From contig NZ_JADQTO010000001.1 of NCBI RefSeq assembly GCF_015704865.1, positions 310,001 to 374,000 of the forward strand: a stretch of DNA of 64,000 nucleotides, read 5' to 3'. This document shows, one piece after another, positions 39,410 to 58,470 of this stretch; position 1 is the stretch's first letter; every line of letters starts with the position of its first letter. This DNA comes from Actinoplanes aureus. GTDB lineage: Bacteria > Actinomycetota > Actinomycetes > Mycobacteriales > Micromonosporaceae. Position numbers and translations under genes: made by a program. Below the pieces are notes generated by a model. It had not been told where the DNA came from. It was given only the letters and a program-made list of their open reading frames with translations, and made no database searches.

Positions 39410-41296
39410 TCAGGCGGTGACGGTCGGGCTGGTCGCGCCCAGTACCGCGGCGGTGTCCGGCAGCACGACGCGGTACTGCTGGCCGCGGACCAGACCACCG
39501 ATGCGGACGCTGGCCGAAGCCTTGAACGTCAGGACGGTCTTCCAGGTGCCCCGGACGTTCTGCTGGACCTGGGCGGTCTGGCCGGTCGCACCGTTGATGG
39601 TGATCGTCATGAGGCCCGTGCCGGAGCGGACGGCGTTCACCGTGGCACGCACCTTGTAGCCGACCTTGGCCGAGGTCACGGCCGTGGTCGTGTTCGACTC
39701 GGCGACCTGGACATAGACCTCGTACGACGCCTTGGCCGTGCGGGTCACCGCGACGGTGCCGGCCTCGGTGGTCTTGGTGTCGGTGCACTGCACCGCACCG
39801 CCGGCCTCGGAGACGCAGACCGAGACGCCCTGCAGCGCCCACGCCTTGCCGCCGGCCTGCACCGAGAAGGTGGTGACGGTGCTGGTGCCGTAAGCAACCT
39901 CGGGCGAGGTGCTGTTGACGGTGATCACCGGGGTGACCTTGCCCGGCACGGTCGTCACCGGGGCGCCCGTGGTGGGAGCGGTGGTGACCGGCGCGGAGGT
40001 CGGAGCCTTGGTCGGCGCGCTGGTGACCGGCGCGCCGGTGCTCGGAGCCGTGGGTGCGGTGGTCGGAGCCGTGGTGGGCGGCGTGGTCACCGGAGCGACG
40101 GCGGCCAGCGCGGCCACCGGGTCGACGCGCCCGTTGCCGTAGTCCTTGTCGAAGCCCTTCGTGCCCAGGTCGACCGCGGTCTCCTCCATGGCGGCCTCGA
40201 TCTGGTCCGGCGTCAGCGCCGGGTTGGCGGCCTTCAGCAGCGCGGCAACCGCCGCGATGTGCGGCGAGGCCATCGAGGTGCCGTTCATCGACTTGTACGC
40301 GGAACCGAGCGCCGTCGGGTAGGTGCTGAGGATGTTGCTGCCCGGGGCCGCCACGTCCACGTAGCTGCCGGCGTTGGAGTAGCTGCCGTAGCGGTCGTTG
40401 GAGTCGGTGGCCGCCACCGCGATCACACCGGCGTCAGCGGCGGGGTACGAGATGGGGCTGCCCGAGGTACGGCTGTTGCCGGCCGCCGCGATGACGGTGA
40501 CACCCTTGCTACGGGCGTAGTTGACCGCGTTGGTGACAGCGGTGACCTTCTGGGTCGAGCCGAGCGACATGTTGATGACCTGGGCACCGTGGTCGGTGGC
40601 CCAGATGATGCCCTCGGCGGCGTCGGACATGTTGCCGCTGCCGTTCGAGCCGAGCGCCTTGACCGGCAGAATCTTCGCGTTCGGGGCGACAGCCGAGATA
40701 CCGACGCCGTTGCCGGTGACCGCCGAGATCGTGCCCGCCACGTGCGTGCCGTGCCCGTTGCCGTCGGTGATCGTGCCGGCCTTGTTGCTGATCGCGTCGT
40801 AGCCGCTGAGCACGTTGCCGGCCAGGTCCGGGTGCTTGGAGTCGACACCGGAGTCGATCACCGCGACGGTGACGTTCTCACCGGTCGACTTCTTCCACGC
40901 CTCGGCGATCTTCAGCTTCGAGAAGTCCCACTGCTGGCTCCGCGACGGGTCCGAGCCGGTCGGGATGCCGAGCGCGTACATCTTGGCGTCGACCTCGACG
41001 CTCACCGCGTCCTCGGCGCCCTGGCCGTCCTCGACCAGCTTGGCCGCGGAGGCCTTGTCGGTGGCCTCCTTGACGGTGATCACCGGCTTGCCGTCCTCGC
41101 CGATCGTCGTGGTGACGACCCGGGCGGGCTTCTCGGCGGAGACGGTGGCCGGGAGCAGCTGCTCCGGGCTGGCGGTCAAGCCGTAGGTGACGGGCTCCCA
41201 GCCCGCCGAGCCGGTCGGAAGAGCGAACGCACCGACAGCGGCAAGAGCACCGATAGCGGCGGTGGCGACGGCGTACCTACGGATCTGAACCTTCAT
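39410..41296 (-). CDS. Secreted subtilisin-like (S8) serine protease A
   Basis: This gene encodes 628 residues. Signal peptide residues 1-28 precede a prodomain-like part. The S8 catalytic triad is D148 (VIDSG), H182 (GHGTH) and S341 (NGTSMASPH), with the oxyanion Asn in AAGNS. A Pro/Thr-rich linker with PTTAPTTAPT repeats follows, then a C-terminal beta domain shared with the two S8 proteases at 52489 and 56866. ATG 41296 is preferred over TTG 41299 because GAGGGA is about 8 nt upstream. It is divergent from paralogue 2. Confidence 0.93.
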   Translation of the reverse strand: MKVQIRRYAVATAAIGALAAVGAFALPTGSAGWEPVTYGLTASPEQLLPATVSAEKPARVVTTTIGEDGKPVITVKEATDKASAAKLVEDGQGAEDAVSVEVDAKMYALGIPTGSDPSRSQQWDFSKLKIAEAWKKSTGENVTVAVIDSGVDSKHPDLAGNVLSGYDAISNKAGTITDGNGHGTHVAGTISAVTGNGVGISAVAPNAKILPVKALGSNGSGNMSDAAEGIIWATDHGAQVINMSLGSTQKVTAVTNAVNYARSKGVTVIAAAGNSRTSGSPISYPAADAGVIAVAATDSNDRYGSYSNAGSYVDVAAPGSNILSTYPTALGSAYKSMNGTSMASPHIAAVAALLKAANPALTPDQIEAAMEETAVDLGTKGFDKDYGNGRVDPVAALAAVAPVTTPPTTAPTTAPTAPSTGAPVTSAPTKAPTSAPVTTAPTTGAPVTTVPGKVTPVITVNSTSPEVAYGTSTVTTFSVQAGGKAWALQGVSVCVSEAGGAVQCTDTKTTEAGTVAVTRTAKASYEVYVQVAESNTTTAVTSAKVGYKVRATVNAVRSGTGLMTITINGATGQTAQVQQNVRGTWKTVLTFKASASVRIGGLVRGQQYRVVLPDTAAVLGATSPTVTA

Positions 41297-41477
41297 CAAG
41301 CGCTTCCCTCTCCCCCGTTTTGCTTACGGGAATCAGATTCGGAGGGGACGGTTGTGACAGCCGGTGTCGGAACGTTGCGCCTCGGTAGCACAGCAGAAGA
41401 GCCGGTGCGGCGGCTTTCTCGGTCGAGCCTGAGGATCGGCTGGAAGTATCCGGATTCGAGCGGATGTGTCCTCACGT

Positions 41478-45625: not shown

Positions 45626-45826
45626 CGCTCAACACCCTCCAAGTTCTCCGGATCAAGCCCCCCATGACTGTGGGAACTTGGACTGTCAATGCTGACAAAA
45701 ACTCCTAATCCACACGGCCAAACTGCCACAGACTCAGCCGTTCCACAGCCACGGGTTGACGGACGGCGATCGACATCGCTATGTTCCTCTCGCATCGAGT
45801 AAGACTCATAGAGAGAAGAACGCAAG

Positions 45827-46576
45827 ATGGACGAGGTGAGCTATCTGGCCGGCTACGACCCGCGGCGCTATCCCGCGGTCGCGGTCACCGTTGACGTCGT
45901 GGCGCTGACGATCCGGGACGGCAAACTCTGTGTCCTGCTTGTTGAGCGCGGAACTCAGCCCTACGCCGGCCAGCGCGCCCTCCCCGGCGGCTTCGTCAAG
46001 AACGAGACCCTCGACGAGGCCGCACTGAGGGAGTTCGCCGAGGAGACCGGCCTGACCCCGGGGCAGGGCGAGCTCGGCCGGGTCCACCTGGAGCAGCTCA
46101 AGACCTACGGCGACCCCGACCGCGACCCCAGGATGCGCGTCATCTCGGTCGCCTACCTGGCATTCGCCCCGCGACTGCCGGAGCCCACGGCCGGCACCGA
46201 CGCGGCACGGGCCTACTGGGTGCCGGTCGACGAGGCCAAGGACCTGGCCTTCGACCACGACGACGTGCTCGCCGACGGCCTGGAGCGCGCCCGCGACAAG
46301 CTCGAGTACACGCCTCTCGCCACCGCCTTCACCGATCCCGAGTTCACGATCAGCGAGCTGCGGCACGTCTACGCCGCGGTCTGGGGCGAGGAACTGCACG
46401 CCGGCAACTTCCACCGCAAGGTGCTCTCCGTGCCGGGGTTCGTCGAGGGCACCGGCCGGACCACCGCACGCGGCGGGGACCGGGGCGGGCCGAGGGCCAA
46501 GCTCTACCAGGCCGGCGACGCCCGCCTGCTGCACCCGGCGCTGCTCAGACCCACGAGGGAGGACCGGGTGAGATGA
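45827..46576 (+). CDS. nrtR: NrtR-like Nudix transcriptional regulator
   Basis: This gene encodes 249 residues. The Nudix box reads GFVKNETLDEAALREFAEETGL, intact. The C-terminus is a winged-helix-like NrtR domain with TAFTDPEFTISELRHVYAAVWG, NFHRKVLSVPGFVE and RPTREDR. NrtR proteins sense ADP-ribose and repress NAD metabolism genes; here an intact Nudix box leaves hydrolysis possible. The downstream partner genes are unusual for NrtR. Its stop overlaps the micro-ORF start by ATGA. The symbol is by family resemblance only. Confidence 0.85.
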   Translation: MDEVSYLAGYDPRRYPAVAVTVDVVALTIRDGKLCVLLVERGTQPYAGQRALPGGFVKNETLDEAALREFAEETGLTPGQGELGRVHLEQLKTYGDPDRDPRMRVISVAYLAFAPRLPEPTAGTDAARAYWVPVDEAKDLAFDHDDVLADGLERARDKLEYTPLATAFTDPEFTISELRHVYAAVWGEELHAGNFHRKVLSVPGFVEGTGRTTARGGDRGGPRAKLYQAGDARLLHPALLRPTREDRVR

Positions 46577-46647
46577 CGACGCCGGAGAAGAGGCCGCGCC
46601 ACTACCGGGGACGCCACCGCCGGACGTGGAGGCGGCGGACCAGATGA
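46573..46647 (+). CDS. 24-codon Arg-rich micro-ORF bridging nrtR and the J-kinase gene
   Basis: An ATG-TGA frame of 24 residues, 12 of them Arg or Lys, beginning MTTPEKRPRHYRG. The ATG overlaps the nrtR stop (ATGA) and its TGA overlaps the next ATG (ATGA), so it joins the two genes with no gap. A GGGAGG site at 46557-46562 can serve its start. The peptide could bind nucleic acid or be a leader that passes ribosomes on. Too short for homology. Confidence 0.55.
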   Translation: MTTPEKRPRHYRGRHRRTWRRRTR

Positions 46648-47564
46648 TCACCTTTGATGAGGCGGTGCCGCGGATCATGGCGGCCGAGCGGTTCAGTGAC
46701 CTGGGGACGGGTGGATCCGATGCCGTTCACGCGTACCGGAAATGGGTGAAGCTGGTCCACCCGGACACCGTGAGTGCGGCGCGGCGCGCGACCGCGACGC
46801 AGGCTTTCGCCAAGCTTTCCGCGCTCTACCACGAGAGGGGCGACGCGCACCGGCCGACGGGGACGCTGCGCACGCGGAACGGCGTCTATCGGATCGAGGA
46901 CACTTTCGCCTCCGGCGACATCGCGGAGCTGCTCGACACCGGCGACACCCTCCTCAAGATCCCCCGCGACCCCGCGGACAACGACCTGATGCGGGCCGAG
47001 GCCGACGCGCTCCTCAAGCTGCGGACGGACGGCGACCCGAGGTTCCGCGCCTACGCTCCCCGGCTCGTCGAAACCTTCACCCACGAGGACCACGACCACC
47101 GCAGACGCACGGTCAACGTGATCAGGCGCCAGCGCGGGATGCGACGACTGAGCACCACGGAAACTCTGGAGGACGGCGTCTGGATCTGGCGCCGGCTGCT
47201 GACCGCCCTCGGCTGGGCGCACCGGGCCGGCGTGATCCACGGCGCGATCCTCGAACCGCACGTCCTGATCCACCCCGAGCATCGCGGCTTGGTTCTGGTG
47301 GATTGGTGCTACTCCGGGCATCGACCGAGGGCGATAGTGAAGGCAAGGGAAGTCGCCTATCCGCCGGAGGTGCTGAACGACAGGACCGCCACCCCAGCCA
47401 CTGACATCTACATGGCAACCGGACTGATGACGCGCCTGCTGGGACCGCGAATGCCGCAGCGGCTGACGGAGTTCGCCGCCGGCTGCGTCTATCAAGCGCC
47501 GCGAATGCGGCCTCAGGATGCCTGGGCGCTCCTGGCCGAACTGGACGAGATCATCCGGATCTGA
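46644..47564 (+). CDS. J-domain / pseudokinase fusion protein
   Basis: This gene encodes 306 residues. The N-terminal J-like domain carries the HPD tripeptide in YRKWVKLVHPDTVS. A kinase-like domain follows, with the lysine in TLLKIPRDP and the αC Glu in RAEADAL. The catalytic loop is VIHGAILEPHVLIHP instead of HRDxxxxN, so the catalytic Asp is absent. The Mg-binding position is DWC (VLVDWCYSG) rather than DFG. It is probably a pseudokinase. ATG 46644 is preferred over GTG 46626 because of its overlap with the micro-ORF stop and a GGAGG 11 nt upstream. A J domain suggests an Hsp70 link. Confidence 0.82.
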   Translation: MITFDEAVPRIMAAERFSDLGTGGSDAVHAYRKWVKLVHPDTVSAARRATATQAFAKLSALYHERGDAHRPTGTLRTRNGVYRIEDTFASGDIAELLDTGDTLLKIPRDPADNDLMRAEADALLKLRTDGDPRFRAYAPRLVETFTHEDHDHRRRTVNVIRRQRGMRRLSTTETLEDGVWIWRRLLTALGWAHRAGVIHGAILEPHVLIHPEHRGLVLVDWCYSGHRPRAIVKAREVAYPPEVLNDRTATPATDIYMATGLMTRLLGPRMPQRLTEFAAGCVYQAPRMRPQDAWALLAELDEIIRI

Positions 47565-47575
47565 GGAGGAACACC

Positions 47576-48535
47576 ATGGGAAGCGGACGCTGGTCCACCG
47601 ACGTCTACACCGCGGCGGCCGAGTACCGCTCCGCGCGCGGGCAGAGCGCCTTCTCCTACAGCGACAGCGGCGCCCGCACCGTCCACCCGGAACTCGACCC
47701 GCGGGGCGTGTTCATGCGGGAGAGCCGGGACAGCGAGGAGCACCCGTTCAGTACGCCGATCGCCGTCCTCTTCGACGTGACCGGTTCGATGGGTAACGTG
47801 CCGCGGGTCCTGCAGACCAAGCTGCCGCAGCTGCTGGGCCTGCTGACCCGGCGGAACTACGCGATCGACCCGCAGATCCTGTTCGGCGCGATCGGGGACG
47901 CCACCTGCGACCGGGCGCCGCTGCAGGTCGGGCAGTTCGAGTCGGACAACCGGATGGACGAGGACCTGGCCCGGATCGTTCTGGAGGGCGGTGGTGGCGG
48001 GCAGAAGCACGAGTCCTACGAACTGGCGCTCTACTTCATGGCCCGGCACACGGTCCTGGACTCGATGATCAACCGGGGGCGGCGCGGTTACCTCTTCCTG
48101 ATCGGCGACGAAATGCCGTACCCGAAGGTGAAGCCGCGCGAGGTCGAAGCCGTGATCGGCGACGAAATCAAGGCGAGCATCAGGATCGAAGACCTGATGA
48201 CCGAGCTGAAGCGGAAGTACGACGTCTATTACATCCTGCCGACCGCGGCCGGATGGGGCGGCGACAAGGAGGTGCTGGGCCGCTGGCGAGCCCTGCTCGG
48301 CCAGAACGTCCTGGAGCTCGACGACCTGGACGCGGTCTGCGAGACGATCGCGCTGACGGTCGGCCTCGGCGAGGACGCCATCGACCTGGACGAGGGCATC
48401 GCCGACCTGTCCGACATCGGCTCGGCGGCGGGCGGCACGGTCGGCCGGGCGCTGGCCCCGCTGCAACGCAACCCGGTGGTGCGCGACGCGCCCTTCGAGA
48501 TCACCGCGGGCCCGAGCGGAAACCAGCGTCTGTGA
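47576..48535 (+). CDS. VWA-like protein of the NrtR/PurA operon
   Basis: This gene encodes 319 residues. The VWA-like core has a MIDAS-type DVTGS motif (VLFDVTGSMGN), an acidic LFLIGDEMPYP and a Rossmann-like layout. GGAGG precedes ATG by 7 nt. The 4-bp GTGA overlap with the next gene shows coupling. Similar proteins are TerY- or chaperone-linked VWA proteins in bacterial conflict operons; here they would bind a metal and a partner. Its exact job is unknown. Confidence 0.8.
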   Translation: MGSGRWSTDVYTAAAEYRSARGQSAFSYSDSGARTVHPELDPRGVFMRESRDSEEHPFSTPIAVLFDVTGSMGNVPRVLQTKLPQLLGLLTRRNYAIDPQILFGAIGDATCDRAPLQVGQFESDNRMDEDLARIVLEGGGGGQKHESYELALYFMARHTVLDSMINRGRRGYLFLIGDEMPYPKVKPREVEAVIGDEIKASIRIEDLMTELKRKYDVYYILPTAAGWGGDKEVLGRWRALLGQNVLELDDLDAVCETIALTVGLGEDAIDLDEGIADLSDIGSAAGGTVGRALAPLQRNPVVRDAPFEITAGPSGNQRL

Positions 48536-49740
48536 GAGAGCACATCGCCGTCGTCGATCTGGGCTACGGCGACGCCGGCAAGGGCACCGTCGTGGACGCC
48601 CTCTGCGCCTCGAACAAGATCAAAGCGGTCCTGCGCTTCAACGGAGGCGCGCAGGCCGGGCACAACGTGGTCACCGAGGACGGCCGCCACCACACCTTCG
48701 CCCAGTTCGGCTCCGGCACGCTGCGTGGCGTCCCCACCCACCTGACTCGCTTCTGCGTGGTCGATCCGCTCGCGCTGGCCGCCGAGGCGCGAGCGCTCGG
48801 CAACCCATATCACCTGCTCACGGTCGATGGTGACGCCCTGCTCGCCACTCCGTGGCATCGCGCCGCCAACCGGCGCCGGGAACTCGCGCGCGGCACGCAC
48901 CGTCACGGTTCCTGCGGCATGGGCATCGGAGAGACGATGGCGTACGCCCTACGCGTCCCCGATGCCCCCAGGATCGCCGACACCCTCCGGCCGGCTACTC
49001 TCCGGCGCCGCCTCGCCGGCGTCCGCGACGCCCTCGGCGACTGCGAGTACCCCCTCGACGACGTGGTCGACGCGTTCACCGCCTTCGCCCGGACGGTACG
49101 CGTCGTCGACTCCACCCATACCGACCGGCTGCTCGCCGAGGGCCCGTGCGTCTTCGAGGGCGCGCAGGGTGTCCTGCTCGACGAGTGGTACGGCTGGCAC
49201 CCGCACACCACCTGGTCCACCACCACCTTCGACAACGTCGCCGCGCTCTGCCCCTCGTTCCGGCGGATCGGCGTGGTGCGTACCTACACCACCCGGCACG
49301 GCGCCGGACCGTTCGTCACCGAGGCACCCGATCTCGATCTGCCCGAACCGCACAACGGCCGCGACGCCTGGCAGGGCACGTTCCGGATCGGCCACTTCGA
49401 CGCGGTCGCCCACCGGTACGCCGTCGAGGTGGCCGGCGGTGTCGACGGGCTCGGGGTGACCCACCTCGACGCCCCGGAACGCTGCCCGGGTCTGCGCGTC
49501 TGCCGGTCGTACCGGATCGACGGCGAACTCTGGGACCGGATCGCCCCCGGCCCACCGCGCGACCTGGTCCATCAGGAACGGATCACGAACCGGCTGCTCC
49601 GGGCCCGTCCGGGCGATCTCCACCGGCCCGAGGATTGGTCTGCCGAGATCAGCGATCTGCTCGGCGCCCCGGTCATTCTGGAGTCCCGCGGCCCGCGTTC
49701 CGTTGACAAGACTTTCACCGCGGTGCCGGTCGTCGCATAA
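48532..49740 (+). CDS. Divergent adenylosuccinate synthetase paralogue
   Basis: This gene encodes 402 residues of the PurA fold. The P-loop-like N-terminus is VVDLGYGDAGKGTVVD, where PurA has GxQWGDEGKG; D14 is kept, but the Glu is Ala15. GG-QAGHNVV holds the His (H44) of the active site. Later segments GPCVFEGAQGVLLDEWYGWHPHTTWS and RRIGVVRTYTTRHGAGPFVTE match PurA. The changed site suggests altered chemistry, such as nucleotide ligation to another amine. It is likely not the housekeeping enzyme. GTG 48532 overlaps the VWA stop. Confidence 0.85.
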   Translation: MREHIAVVDLGYGDAGKGTVVDALCASNKIKAVLRFNGGAQAGHNVVTEDGRHHTFAQFGSGTLRGVPTHLTRFCVVDPLALAAEARALGNPYHLLTVDGDALLATPWHRAANRRRELARGTHRHGSCGMGIGETMAYALRVPDAPRIADTLRPATLRRRLAGVRDALGDCEYPLDDVVDAFTAFARTVRVVDSTHTDRLLAEGPCVFEGAQGVLLDEWYGWHPHTTWSTTTFDNVAALCPSFRRIGVVRTYTTRHGAGPFVTEAPDLDLPEPHNGRDAWQGTFRIGHFDAVAHRYAVEVAGGVDGLGVTHLDAPERCPGLRVCRSYRIDGELWDRIAPGPPRDLVHQERITNRLLRARPGDLHRPEDWSAEISDLLGAPVILESRGPRSVDKTFTAVPVVA

Positions 49741-52361: not shown

Positions 52362-52488
52362 ATGTCGCGGTGGCATCGACGCAGGCCGCACCTCAGCCGC
52401 ACCCCACAGCGTCCGCCGTCGCACTTGTCCGGCCGGACAGTTGTCGACGCGGCGCCGGATGGCGTCGCAGTCGACGAGAGGTGGACGG

Positions 52489-54450
52489 ATGAGGCAGCCG
52501 GTCAAGCGTGGCATCTTCGCGGGTGCGCTCGCGGCGCTCGCGATCGCGGGCGTGGGCGCCTACGTCCTGCCCACCGGCACGCCAGGCTGGGCGCCGGTCA
52601 CCTACGGGCTCTCCGCGAGCCCGGAGGAAATCCTGCCCGCCGTCGTCTCGCCCGCCGAGCCGGCCCGCGTCGTCACCACCACCCTGGACGCGAACGGCCG
52701 GCCGGTCGTCACCGTCACCGAGGCGACCGACCGGGCGAGCGCGGCCGGCCTGGTCCGGGACGCGCAGCGGGCGGAGAACACGGTCGGCGTCGAGGTCGAC
52801 GCCGTGGCCGAGATGTTCCAGGCGCCCACCGGCACCGACCGGTACCGGCCCCTTCAGTGGGACCTGGACACCATGCGGGTGCCGGCGGCCTGGCAGCGGT
52901 CGACCGGCGCCGGCGTGACGGTCGCGGTGATCGACACCGGTGTGGACGTCTCGCACGAGGACCTGACCGGCCGAGTGCTCTCCGGCTACGACGCGATAAG
53001 CGGCACCGAGGGTGTCAGCTCGGACGGGAACGGCCACGGCACCCATGTGGCCGGCACGATCGCCGCGACGACCGGTAACGGGTCCGGCGTGGCGTCGGTC
53101 GCCCCGGACTCGTCGATCCTGCCGGTCAAGGTGCTGGGGGCGAACGGCTCGGGCTACATGTCCGATGTGGCCGAGGGCATCGTCTGGGCCGCCGACCACG
53201 GCGCTCACGTGATCAACATGTCGCTGGGCTCGACCGGCCGGACCGGTGCGGTGAGCACCGCGATCGCCTACGCCCGCAGCAGGAACGTCGTGGTGGTCGC
53301 CGCCGCCGGCAACAGCCGAGCCCAGGGCAGCCCCATCCAGTACCCCGCCGCCGACGCGGGCGTGATCACGGTGGCCGCCACCGATTCCACGGACACGGTC
53401 GCGAACTACTCCAACGCCGGGGACTACGTGGATGTGGCCGCGCCGGGCAGCGCGATCGTCAGCACGTACCCGAGGGTCCTGCACACCCCCGGTTATGGAC
53501 GGCTCTCCGGCACCTCGATGGCCGCGCCGCACGTGGCGGCGGTCGCCGCGCTCCTGGTCGCGGACCGGCCGGGGATCACCCCGGACGAGGTGGAGATCGC
53601 GCTGAAGACCTCCGCGATCGATCTCGGCAGCCCCGGTAGGGACAACGACTACGGCTACGGACGGGTCGACGCAGCGGCCGCGCTCGAGGCGATCGGGCCG
53701 GTCACCACCCCGCCGACCAGCACACCCGTCACGACCGAGCCGACCAGCGCCGCACCGACGACCGAACCGCCGGCCACCGAGCCGACGACCGAGCCGCCGG
53801 CGACCGAGCCGCCGGCCACTGAGCCGGCGACCCCGGCACCCACCGCGACCGAGACCAGCGCGCCCACGAGCCCGCCCACCACGGCGCCGGCCCCGAACGA
53901 ACCGGCTCCGACCGAGCCGGCACCGGCACAGACCGTCGTCACTGCGGACTCCTCCACTCAGCGCGTCACCTACGGGACCACGGCGGTCACCACGTTCACC
54001 GTCACCGCGGGCGGGACGGCCTTCGCGGACCAGCCGGCCTCGATCTGCGTCGCGCCCGCCGGTGAGACCTGGTCCTGCACCTCGGTGCGGACCACCGTGG
54101 ACGGCACCTACCTGGACACCCGCACCGCGACCGGCGCCTTCCGGGTCCGGCTGGTCGTGGCCGCGACCGGCGCCAACACCGGCGCGTCGGCGACGGCGAC
54201 CCGCACGGTGAAGGCGGCGGTCACGGTGACCCGTACCGCGAAGGGCACGCTCGCCGTGACCGTCAACGGGCCCACCGGGCAGGCGATGACCCTCCAGCGA
54301 TACACCGCCGGACAGTGGACCACCGTCCAGACGTACGTCACCGAAGCGAACCAGACCTTGACCGGCCTGGTCAGCGGTGCGACGTATCGGGTCGTGGTGG
54401 CCGGCACGGCCACCGTGCAGAGCGTGACCAGCGGATCCGTGAAGGCCTAG
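52489..54450 (+). CDS. Secreted subtilisin-like (S8) serine protease B
   Basis: This gene encodes 653 residues with a signal peptide, prodomain-like segment and S8 domain. The triad is D149 (VIDTG), the His of GHGTH and the Ser of [10 protein letters not shown] linker of TEPPATEP-type repeats and the same C-terminal beta domain as protease A follow, ending TSGSVKA. ATG 52489 follows GAGAGGTGG. It shares most of its N-terminal prodomain (TGTPGWAPVTYGLSASPEE) with protease A, so the two are close paralogues. Confidence 0.93.
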   Translation: MRQPVKRGIFAGALAALAIAGVGAYVLPTGTPGWAPVTYGLSASPEEILPAVVSPAEPARVVTTTLDANGRPVVTVTEATDRASAAGLVRDAQRAENTVGVEVDAVAEMFQAPTGTDRYRPLQWDLDTMRVPAAWQRSTGAGVTVAVIDTGVDVSHEDLTGRVLSGYDAISGTEGVSSDGNGHGTHVAGTIAATTGNGSGVASVAPDSSILPVKVLGANGSGYMSDVAEGIVWAADHGAHVINMSLGSTGRTGAVSTAIAYARSRNVVVVAAAGNSRAQGSPIQYPAADAGVITVAATDSTDTVANYSNAGDYVDVAAPGSAIVSTYPRVLHTPGYGRLSGTSMAAPHVAAVAALLVADRPGITPDEVEIALKTSAIDLGSPGRDNDYGYGRVDAAAALEAIGPVTTPPTSTPVTTEPTSAAPTTEPPATEPTTEPPATEPPATEPATPAPTATETSAPTSPPTTAPAPNEPAPTEPAPAQTVVTADSSTQRVTYGTTAVTTFTVTAGGTAFADQPASICVAPAGETWSCTSVRTTVDGTYLDTRTATGAFRVRLVVAATGANTGASATATRTVKAAVTVTRTAKGTLAVTVNGPTGQAMTLQRYTAGQWTTVQTYVTEANQTLTGLVSGATYRVVVAGTATVQSVTSGSVKA

Positions 54451-56321: not shown

Positions 56322-56756
56322 TCAGCGTCGGGTCAGGACGAACACCGGGATCAGACGGTCGGTCTTGGTCTGGTAGTCCGCGTACGGCGGGTAGGCCTCG
56401 ACGGCCCGATCCCACCAGATCTGCCGTTCCTCCCCGGAGACCTCGCGGACGGTGTAGTCGTGCTTCTCCGCCCCGTCCTGGAGCTCGACGTGCGGGTTCT
56501 TGCGGATGTTGTAGACCCAGACCGGGTTCTTCGGGGCGCCGCCGAGCGAGCCGACGACCGCGTACTCCCCGTCGTGCTCGACCCGCATCAGCGCGGTCTT
56601 GCGCAGTTGCCCGGTCTTCGCGCCGACGCTCGTCAGTACGATGATCGGCCTTTCCATGATGGTGTTCGCCTGGGCGCCATCCGTCGCCTCGTACTTCTCG
56701 GCCTGCTTGCGAGCCCAGTCCGACGTGCTGGGCGCGTACTCACCAGTCAAAGGCAT
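56322..56756 (-). CDS. Deazaflavin (F420)-dependent nitroreductase-like protein
   Basis: This gene encodes 144 residues of the DDN/nitroreductase family. Typical motifs are [34 protein letters not shown] and [19 protein letters not shown]. These small proteins use F420 to reduce small molecules; the substrate is not known. The start ATG 56756 is preferred by homology. It stands between the AAA gene and protease C. Confidence 0.9.
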
Positions 56757-56865
56757 GATGCCGAGTCTAGATCGCACCCGAACCGCTACCGCCTCCCTGC
56801 CCGGAACGCACTCCGCACAGATCACCTTCGAATGGTCGGACCACCATCGAAGAAGGGACAGGCGA

Positions 56866-58470
56866 GTGCGGCGACGACTTGTCATCGGTACGTTGACGGT
56901 GGCCTTGGCGGTGGCGGGGCTTCCCGCCGGCGCCCGGGCGGACGAGACCACGGCGGGCCGTGTGGTGGTCACCTCACTCGACGCCGCGGGCCGCCCGGTG
57001 TTCACGATCGGCGAGGCCGGCCGGGTGATGCGGGCCGCGAGCGTGCTCAGCGTGGAGACCGACGTCCCGGTACGCGCGCTGGCCGGCTCCGACCCGTACC
57101 GGAGCTCCCAGTGGGATCTGGTGAAGATCGGCGCGACGCGGGCCTGGGGCGTCTCCACCGGCGCCGGGGTCACGGTCGCGGTGATCGACACCGGGGTGGA
57201 CGGCGCTCATCCCGACCTGAGGGGCAAGGTCCTCGCCGGTTACGACACGATCGGCGACGTCGCGGGCGGGGACAGCGACGAGAACGGACACGGCACCCAC
57301 GTGGCCGGGACCATCGCCGCCCTGACCGGCAACGGCGTCGGCGTCTCCGGTGTCGCCCCGGGCGCGCGGATCCTGCCGGTGAAGGCGCTCGGCGCGGACG
57401 GCAGCGGCTGGATGTCGGACACCGCGGAGGGCATCGTCTGGGCCGCCGACCACGGCGCCCAGGTGATCAACATGTCGCTGGGCACGGCCGATCAGATGGG
57501 TGCGGTGACCGCCGCGGTCGCGTACGCCCGGAGCAAGGGTGTCACCGTGGTGGCCGCCGCCGGCAACGAACGGACCAAGGGCAGCCCGGTCAGCTACCCG
57601 GCGGCCGACCCCGGCGTCATCGCGGTGGCCGCCACCGACGCCGCCGACCGGTACGCCTACTACTCCACCGCCGGTGCCTACGTCGACCTCGCGGCGCCCG
57701 GCAGCGTCATCCTCAACACCTTTCCGACGAGCCTCGAGCGCCGCGGATACGGCACCATGAGCGGCACCTCGATGGCCGCGCCGCACGTGGCGGCGGCCGC
57801 CGCATTGGTCAAGGCGTATCGGCCGGCCGCCACCCCGGATCAGATCGAGCAGACGCTGGAGCGCTCCGCCGTGGACCTGGGCGCCCGGGGGTTCGACCGG
57901 GACTACGGCTACGGGCGCCTCGACGCCGCCGCGGCCCTGGCCTCGCTCAGCCAGGTCGTCGTCTCGAACGTCGCCACACGGCTGGTGTCCTACGGCACCC
58001 GGACCAGCACGACGTTCACCGCGTCCGCCGAGGGCCGCCGCCTGGCCGGCCGCGCCGCCTCGATCTGCGTCTCGGTGAGCGGCGGGGCGTGGCGCTGCTC
58101 GGCGGTGCGGACCGACGCGGCCGGCCGGTACACCCTCGTACGCACCGCGACCGGCGCCTTCCGTGCCCGGTTGCAGGTGCCGGCCACCGCGATGTCGGCG
58201 GCGGCCTCCGCCACCGCCGGCTACGGCGTGCAGGCGAGGGCCACGGTGGTTCGCTCCGGCAAGGGCGCGATCACGGTACGGGTCACCGGCGCGACCGGCC
58301 AGAAGATGTACGTCCAGCGCTACCTCAAGAAGCGCTGGACCACCGTGCGGACCTACTCGGCGGCGTCCGCCCGGAAGGTGACGAAGCTGGTCCGGGGCGG
58401 GAAGTACCGCGTGGTGGTGGCGAACACGAAGTCGGTGCGTGGCGTGACCAGCGGCACGGTCAAGGCCTGA
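56866..58470 (+). CDS. Secreted subtilisin-like (S8) serine protease C
   Basis: This gene encodes 534 residues with a signal peptide ending near ARADE. The triad is D108 (VIDTG), the His of GHGTH and the Ser of SGTSMAAPH. The Pro/Thr linker found in A and B is almost absent here, and the C-terminal beta domain follows directly. GTG 56866 has AGGGAC about 9 nt upstream. It lacks the long GWxPVTYGL prodomain part. It is one of three paralogues and ends with TSGTVKA, as in B. Confidence 0.9.

Follow-up and report, generated by a model that had tools for sequence, protein, structure and literature searches.

The subject of this analysis is a 64,000-nucleotide stretch of the Actinoplanes aureus genome (contig NZ_JADQTO010000001.1; genome size 10.7 Mb), referred to below as the window, and within it an operon of five plus-strand frames at 45827-49740. 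In order, the frames encode an NrtR-type regulator, a micro-ORF (open reading frame) product, a J-domain pseudokinase, a VWA protein and a protein related to the adenylosuccinate synthetase PurA; a likely promoter and a predicted operator lie upstream (Table 1). A first-pass annotation of the window had described the frames as coupled, the successive junctions being ATGA, ATGA, an 11-bp gap and GTGA. The coordinates and overlaps were checked and bear this description out. The micro-ORF probably has no function in the module. Among 18 relatives in which both the NrtR gene and the J gene were called, the junction between the two contained a micro-ORF in L004 only; the NrtR stop overlapped the J-gene start by 4 bp in nine relatives and by 1 bp in two, and in the remaining ones the two genes were 8-2521 bp apart or the start was called with doubt. 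On this distribution the micro-ORF was rejected as a module component.

Table 1. Features of the operon and of the region directly upstream, with positions in the window
Feature	Position	Strand	Basis
Likely promoter, TTGACG, 18 bp, TATGTT	45756-45785	+	Consensus match read by eye
Predicted tandem palindromic operator, CTCN5GAG-N5-CTCN5GAG	45789-45815		Directly 3' of the -10-like box
NrtR-type regulator (Nudix domain and winged helix)	45827-46576	+	Pfam NUDIX 7.6e-20, NrtR_WHD 6.9e-11; in 79/80 genome loci
Micro-ORF, 24 codons, arginine-rich	46573-46647	+	Seen in 2 of 19 compared loci, the window and L004
J-domain pseudokinase, 306 aa	46644-47564	+	Predicted kinase fold; phrog_3043 8.7e-42
J domain (N-terminal part of the pseudokinase), HPD at protein residues 39-41	46644-46850	+	Pfam DnaJ 0.0049, under the cut-off
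VWA protein, intact MIDAS, 319 aa	47576-48535	+	Predicted VWA fold; phrog_2971 2.3e-70
PurA-like protein, 402 aa, GTG start at 48532	48532-49740	+	Pfam Adenylsucc_synt 1.9e-54; phrog_1211 2.3e-72

The PurA-like protein and its partners

The last gene of the operon had been annotated as a PurA paralogue with a changed P-loop. The first half of this claim stands, since a separate, full-length canonical purA is present on contig C22 of the same genome and scores 596 bits, against 185 bits for the operon gene; the PurA-like protein as the organism's only adenylosuccinate synthetase was thereby ruled out. The P-loop change does not stand as a local feature, the Glu14 position being occupied by Glu in 55 and by Ala in 53 of the 122 proteins compared. 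These 122 proteins were obtained by dereplicating 201 PurA-like proteins at 80% identity, and they were aligned to E. coli PurA (L211) for residue analysis. The catalytic residues Asp13, Lys16 and His41 were each kept in 120/120 proteins, two more being gapped at these N-terminal positions; Gln224 was kept in 122/122, and Thr239 and Asp333 in 121 of 122. We take Asp13, Lys16, His41 and Gln224 to be the PurA residues that serve activation of the purine 6-oxo group, phosphoryl transfer and base recognition. Thr129 and Arg143 are presumably ligands of the 5'-phosphate of inosine monophosphate (IMP) in PurA, and Thr239, retained in the PurA-like family, presumably a third such position.

Other positions were changed. 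Aspartate-binding Arg303 fell in a gap in all 122 proteins, and position 305, Arg in PurA, was Phe in 84, Leu in 18, Ile in 6, Met in 5 and Trp in 5, among the residues listed. Thr301 was replaced by Gln in 120/122, Thr129 by Cys or Val in 117/122, Arg131 by Met, Val or Leu in 106/122, and Lys331 by His or Cys, and Arg143 was not conserved across the 122. Further, the family has acquired near-invariant residues of its own: His at the Val273 position (122/122), Gln at the Asn38 position (117/122) and an aromatic residue at position 300 (116/122). The protein is thus a member of the PurA family (PF00709) by sequence, sharing with PurA the residues Asp13, Lys16, His41, Gln224, Thr239 and Asp333, but it lacks the Arg303/Arg305 aspartate/IMP loop and differs from PurA also in the changed positions just listed, in its constant VWA partner and in its place in a separate clade. 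The roles of Arg303 and Asp13 are those given in sections of PMC8342488 and PMC12884076.

The clade was found in a quick tree of 89 of the 122 proteins, made without bootstrap and with 38 of its 92 inner branches open. The PurA-like proteins formed one group, with 98 in the Shimodaira-Hasegawa-like approximate likelihood ratio test (SH-aLRT) and a stem of 1.2 changes per site, apart from five PurA proteins and one PurZ. PurZ, of the 2-aminoadenine pathway of phages, is likewise a phage-borne PurA paralogue (sections of PMC8342488 and PMC12884076), and PHROG 1211, the family matched by the operon protein, bears a PurZ-like name. PurZ of phage phiVC8, however, has Ser at position 13, where the module enzyme keeps Asp in 120/120, and it falls outside the module clade, though its placement is unsure because its branch is 5.2 changes long. 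With the Asp13-to-Ser change absent throughout, PurZ was ruled out as the identity of the PurA-like protein. The full name of PHROG 1211 is "2-aminooxy adenylosuccinate synthetase"; the name is used on RefSeq phage records among those listed, and the PurA-like gene bears a PurZ-type name in the RefSeq phage copies listed, although the module proteins, keeping Asp13, are not PurZ. PMC12884076 counts 481 viral PurA homologues and a PurZ group of 151 sequences, and the section with these counts contains no discussion of the module clade.

The two genes upstream had been read as encoding an HPD J domain joined to a kinase fold without the catalytic Asp, and a VWA protein of the metal ion-dependent adhesion site (MIDAS) type. 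Both readings were confirmed. The AlphaFold models were built from alignments of 62 sequences for the pseudokinase and 67 for the VWA protein, and residues were counted in 146 pseudokinases (134 distinct) and 178 VWA proteins (165 distinct), sets that were not dereplicated and in which some contigs are counted twice. The pseudokinase model has a helical N-terminal part and a kinase fold, with a predicted local distance difference test score (pLDDT) of 95.1, and the kinase fold resembles PknB (Z 23.3; root-mean-square deviation (rmsd) 2.1 over 217 residues). In the family scans the kinase match was weak, Pfam DnaJ gave 17.4 bits on the J part against a cut-off of 27.8, and the fold search hardly probed that part; HPD is nonetheless present between two helices, as judged from sequence and model, and we assign a J domain on that basis. 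In the family, H was kept in 137, P in 143 and D in 134 of the 146 proteins. The catalytic-loop Asp is Ala in the window protein, and across the 146 proteins the corresponding column is occupied by Ala (118), Gly (22), Ser (3), Asn (2) or Asp (1). Loss of the Asp is a family trait (145/146) and not a local mutation of the window gene; the protein is therefore a pseudokinase by sequence, and an active kinase was ruled out. Trp180 and the catalytic-loop His199 were present in all 146 proteins, Lys105 in 121 and Glu119 in 124. We interpret the dead kinase with its J domain as a putative scaffold for recruiting DnaK.

The VWA protein had no Pfam match and, in NCBIfam, only one weak and irrelevant match. 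Its model (pLDDT 91.8) shows a VWA fold for which integrin beta-I domains were the closest match (Z 16.0; rmsd 3.0 over 192), and the MIDAS residues (DxTxS ... D) are near-invariant, Asp67 being present in 177, Thr69 in 176, Ser71 in 176 and Asp178 in all 178 proteins.

Distribution and origin of the module

A search with the VWA protein of one genome for each of 84,980 species gave at least 587 stretches, at least 549 of them confirmed. The corresponding search of IMG/VR gave 372 stretches, 361 of them confirmed, and a reverse search from the PurA-like side gave 336, of which 324 were confirmed. The best 80 of each list were examined, so the co-occurrence counts hold for the closer relatives. 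The PurA-like gene lay within 6.5 kb of the VWA gene in 78/80 genome loci and 76/80 viral contigs. In five of the six loci without it (four viral contigs and genome locus L123) the sequence runs on for only 0.2-3.3 kb to the right. In the sixth, L066 of Actinoplanes siamensis, 10 kb are available on either side; NrtR-like and VWA genes are retained there, with neither the PurA-like gene nor the J-pseudokinase gene beside them. In the reverse search the VWA gene stood beside the PurA-like gene in 76/80 loci, and the four misses had less than 1 kb upstream. This pairing in both search directions rules out a chance neighbourhood. The J-pseudokinase gene was near the VWA gene in 74/80 genome loci and 58/80 viral contigs, and an NrtR-like gene in 79/80 genome loci versus 3/80 viral contigs. 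Conserved co-occurrence of all five genes, raised by the first-pass annotation, was therefore seen in part: the VWA and PurA-like genes stay together, the J-pseudokinase gene is less constant, the NrtR-like gene is almost exclusively bacterial, and the micro-ORF drops out.

The module is widespread in large phages. Isolated phages with the VWA gene numbered 208 records, namely 189 of Mycobacterium, 10 of Rhizobium, 6 of Vibrio and 3 others. The PurA-like protein had 227 matches, including the same 189, 10 and 6; those from additional hosts, among the records listed, resemble ordinary PurA. Among the matches listed, the VWA gene was labelled hypothetical in all phage records but one. On plasmids of Rhodococcus, Tsukamurella, Variovorax, Agrobacterium and Acetobacter the J-pseudokinase, VWA and PurA-like genes follow one another in a row. 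The plasmid NrtR-like gene is last in Rhodococcus and Tsukamurella and divergent in Agrobacterium and Acetobacter, and none was found in Variovorax. Among 396 genomes drawn across the phylum, the VWA gene was found in the A. aureus genome and one other; within the genus it was found in 48/59 genomes.

In the PurA-like tree the actinobacterial copies share one fork, unstarred and with a support of 94, with plasmid and viral copies. Another set of viral copies, which is starred, encloses three plasmid copies from Alphaproteobacteria. Since bacterial copies are nested among viral ones at two places, the tree suggests that bacteria captured the module from phages at least twice. Transfer in the opposite direction, from bacteria to phages, is compatible with the quick tree, but the sampled viral sequences are far more diverse.

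Several additional genes were seen in or beside the module. The commonest extra neighbour in viral loci was an R2K-clade ATP-grasp gene 3' of the PurA-like gene (cluster in 12/83 loci; Pfam match shown for L179:2183-2938). In a Bixzunavirus phage an 88-aa protein (phrog_3263; L042:8017-8283) is encoded between the VWA and PurA-like genes. The neighbourhood of the module includes TROVE (Ro60-type) genes in a Vibrio phage as well as in some viral contigs (L043, L136, L278, L279). In some mycobacteriophages (e.g., H133-H143 and H147-H152) the VWA match comes in two pieces with a span about 0.76 kb longer; the record H151 names an HNH endonuclease there, and the split is probably due to a homing insert. 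In the actinobacterial loci no further neighbour family exceeded 14/80, as judged by a crude longest-ORF clustering that found the core genes themselves in only 47-72/80 and can miss neighbours.

The chromosomal setting in Actinoplanes is conserved. Relatives of three flanking genes, encoding a small protein (with identity of up to 95%), a lipoprotein-like protein and a surface-protein-like protein, were found within 10 kb in 13/13 Actinoplanes-group loci (L051-L062, L066), and a subtilase gene near the operon in 12/13, the counts being of presence and not of gene order. Given these shared flanks, the operon appears to be a settled chromosomal trait of the Actinoplanes group and not a recent insertion, and a recent defence island in this genus was ruled out. 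In the window itself, related subtilase-type genes stand on both sides of the operon (39410-41299, 52441-54450 and 56599-58470), with relatives near the operon in other Actinoplanes.

The regulator, its operator and genes of NAD metabolism

The intact Nudix box claimed for the regulator was borne out by reading the sequence against the motif, and Pfam places an NrtR winged helix behind the Nudix domain. On these two domains we count the protein as a member of the NrtR family; the curated NrtR equivalog model gave 115 bits, below its cut-off of 400. The closest solved structures were AraR (5bs6) and the MutT/nudix proteins 2fml and 3gz5. Of 80 regions upstream of the NrtR-like gene, one from the window and 79 from other loci, 72 contained the operator exactly and 78 did so when a single mismatch was allowed, against a background of 2 matches in 400 random pieces of the same loci, the true site possibly included. 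TTGAC and TA-rich boxes precede the operator in several relatives too. In the whole 10.7-Mb genome the pattern occurs at two places, here and as one exact match on contig C37 that was looked at by ORF listing alone and may be due to chance; with only these two places, the predicted operator seems dedicated to the module operon. The Nudix domain and winged helix are thus shared with NrtR and AraR regulators, while the tandem CTCN5GAG operator at two genomic places may set the module regulator apart.

A second NrtR-type protein in the A. aureus genome is 60-62% identical to the operon regulator, and the phage and plasmid NrtR-like partners, which sit at differing operon positions, are 32-43% identical to it. 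The regulator tree has long branches that meet and was used as a hint only. The module seems to have recruited NrtR-family regulators more than once, and such repeated recruitment would point to a common ligand. Palindromes of different sequence, possible operators of other NrtR-like proteins, occupy the place of the actinobacterial operator upstream of the J-pseudokinase gene in L048, L049, L045 and L046.

Genes of nicotinamide adenine dinucleotide (NAD) and ADP-ribose metabolism were then counted in large phages. From the best 80 of the PurA-like search, 53 contigs of at least 100 kb were taken, together with five from the VWA search of IMG/VR; three near-copies were dropped, then those five to stay within 50 records, and the 50 that were used had been chosen regardless of NAD genes. 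Clustering was tested by uniform placement in 200,000 simulations, with contigs, possibly fragments, treated as independent after dereplication at 65% identity, and with an 8-kb limit that was fixed after the distances had been inspected. One Nudix and one ribonucleotide reductase match below the curated cut-off were excluded, three ribonucleotide reductase pieces of one contig were counted as one, and three weak partial matches to that enzyme were kept. NAMPT-type genes (PF04095) were present in 11/50 contigs, and seven of the 11 lay within 8 kb of the PurA-like gene, where 0.74 were expected (p<5e-6; 0 of 200,000 simulations reached seven). NADAR genes were present in 16/50 contigs, six of them near the PurA-like gene (expected 1.13, p 5e-4). 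Nudix genes gave 30 matches in 23 contigs, NrtR-type genes included, with eight near the PurA-like gene in seven contigs (expected 2.16, p 1e-3). The control, ribonucleotide reductase, showed no clustering, with one of 12 near the PurA-like gene (expected 0.86, p 0.59). In the 363-kb phage contig L292 the order is J-pseudokinase, VWA, an extra ORF, PurA-like, NADAR, a small ORF, NadA (quinolinate synthase), NAD kinase, a cytidylyltransferase-Nudix protein and NAMPT; in the 416-kb contig L154 genes for a Nudix protein and NAMPT stand between the VWA and PurA-like genes. Because the module adjoins NAD salvage and ADP-ribose genes in part of the large phages, its substrate or signal may lie in NAD/ADP-ribose metabolism.

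Some candidates were dropped. Two genes of Rhizobium phage TM30, considered as NAMPT and NMNAT, were ruled out when Pfam identified them as PRTase_3 and a Nudix protein, and suspected ADP-ribose genes of macro-like (L284) and SLOG-like (L293) type had no Pfam match and were not counted. An extra weak Nudix-type match was seen 3' of the PurA-like gene in seven Streptomycetaceae loci (L080, L089, L104, L110, L114, L116 and L120).

Interpretation and alternatives

We consider it about an even chance that the operon represents a mobile, phage-derived module with a PurA-fold enzyme and a VWA protein as its core, usually joined by the J-domain pseudokinase, and tied to NAD/ADP-ribose. In such a module the residue changes suggest that the PurA-like enzyme would spend a nucleoside triphosphate on activating a hypoxanthine-type purine carried by a molecule that is not IMP, and that the partner joined to the activated purine would not be aspartate. 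A dedicated scaffold of the enzyme would consist of the VWA protein together with the pseudokinase, and the J domain may bring DnaK to this scaffold to load or remodel the complex. By analogy with the NrtR family, the actinobacterial regulator most likely sits on the tandem operator that follows the -10-like box and keeps the operon repressed, and an ADP-ribose-like ligand, a sign of NAD breakdown, would lift repression by binding at the Nudix domain. A fuller version, which we put forward tentatively and at somewhat less than even odds, is a novel branch of purine chemistry. In this version the VWA protein and the Hsp70-recruiting pseudokinase would hold a ligase of PurA fold, whose target would be either the purine in a molecule of the NAD or ADP-ribose type or nucleotides that host immunity has deaminated. 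The system would have evolved in the NAD toolkit of large phages and been captured by bacteria at least twice, with an actinobacterial repressor that reads NAD breakdown.

A number of observations weigh against this picture. The pseudokinase was not found in 22/80 viral loci, the J domain, as read from sequence, is missing from some jumbo-phage pseudokinases (L039, L040, L154), and 1/146 proteins of that family has Asp at the catalytic column. Strict Nudix spacing was found in only 49/88 actinobacterial NrtR-like proteins; 39 deviate, many of them with loop inserts and a few truncated. In the phages 39/50 contigs are without NAMPT and 34/50 without NADAR, so the link to NAD genes is an association and not a necessity, and 4/11 NAMPT genes and 10/16 NADAR genes lie far from the module. 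When the 80 actinobacterial loci were probed with phage NAMPT and NADAR, no NAMPT match and one NADAR match were found (L095:1550-1936, E 4e-8, some 2.5 kb away from the VWA gene and on the opposite strand); the NAD link, apart from the regulator, therefore rests on the phages. The first-pass annotation had proposed a nucleotide- or NAD-linked modification or stress/defence system with an Hsp70-linked scaffold. The nucleotide/NAD and Hsp70 elements gained support from the HPD residues (kept in 134-143/146), from the NrtR-family regulator and from the clustered NAD and ADP-ribose genes of large phages, but the defence element is not supported so far.

NAD breakdown is a frequent signal of infection, and the operon could be a bacterial anti-phage defence system, in which infection breaks NAD, ADP-ribose lifts the NrtR-type repressor, and the PurA-like enzyme makes a phage-stopping effector or a modified nucleotide. 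The regulator with its operator would fit, as would the module's being common to chromosomes, plasmids and phages, but we judge this reading unlikely. Many phages carry the same module, which is odd for an anti-phage effector, and conserved chromosomal neighbours in 13/13 Actinoplanes-group loci, together with the VWA gene in 48/59 same-genus genomes, are not how defence islands usually look. PADLOC gave no strong match; its best was MkoA at 2.3e-7, to the kinase part only, the others were weak matches to kinase or Nudix models, and there was none for the VWA or PurA-like protein. The location of the operon does not favour defence. Better placed, if still on the unlikely side taken by itself, is a phage counter-defence or NAD-repair module domesticated by bacteria, which would restore or hide purine or NAD derivatives damaged by host immunity (e.g., deaminated, hypoxanthine nucleotides), beside NAD resynthesis and de-ADP-ribosylation. 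Asp13 and Gln224, taken here as hypoxanthine-recognising, persist, whereas ligands of aspartate and of the 5'-phosphate have been altered, and NAMPT and NADAR cluster with the module, NadA and NAD kinase joining them in L292; the absence of NAMPT from 39 of the 50 phage records speaks against it. As a special case of the phage-derived module preferred above, it shares part of that reading's odds.

The PurA-like protein might no longer be an enzyme, but a nucleotide-binding sensor or a structural part of a VWA/Hsp70 chaperone device serving, for example, phage particle assembly. The J-domain pseudokinase is itself non-enzymatic by sequence, and part of PMC7824862 describes other VWA proteins as co-chaperones, including those in MoxR-VWA pairs of jumbo phages and one that an archaeal virus requires for its tail. 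Conservation of Asp13, Lys16 and His41 (120/120) and of Gln224 (122/122) across very divergent phages, and retention of the PurA-like gene in a bacterial operon without phage structural genes beside it in the window, make this improbable. Least probable by far is an ordinary second adenylosuccinate synthetase, or a PurZ making 2-aminoadenine, among chance neighbours. Pfam and PHROG names would suggest as much, but the proteins form a separate clade with Arg303 absent in 122/122, Thr301 changed to Gln in 120 and Val273 to His in 122, the Asp13-to-Ser change of PurZ is lacking, the neighbours are constant and the genome has a normal purA.

The preferred module has points in common with systems already described. 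ADP-ribosylglycohydrolase systems with Nudix or WYL regulators and VWA proteins, described in part of PMC9503650, also combine a Nudix regulator and a VWA protein in one neighbourhood and share the ADP-ribose theme, but the constant partners here are the PurA-like enzyme and the J-pseudokinase. Crude ORF clustering of the actinobacterial loci, with no domain search aimed at a glycohydrolase made, put no non-core neighbour family in more than 14/80. We take the module also to resemble TerY-type systems. A VWA protein with a kinase-fold partner and the idea of a nucleotide-like metabolite are common to the module and to the Ter-type VWA-kinase systems treated in part of PMC7824862, whereas the module kinase lacks the catalytic Asp. 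PRTase_3 and HAD genes near the module in one Rhizobium phage are a further likeness to Ter systems. The literature search, which had most subscription journals and all bioRxiv preprints outside its reach, found no title on this gene combination among those listed. In sum, every part of the module has a known fold, and the combination, with the predicted specificity of the enzyme, matches none of the systems tested.

The VWA protein is encoded in hundreds of stretches, at least 549 in genome contigs and 361 in viral contigs. If the proposal is true, the PurA family would gain a new enzyme specificity, an orphan gene block of laboratory phages would be explained, and the operon's promoter would be a switch that may report NAD breakdown.

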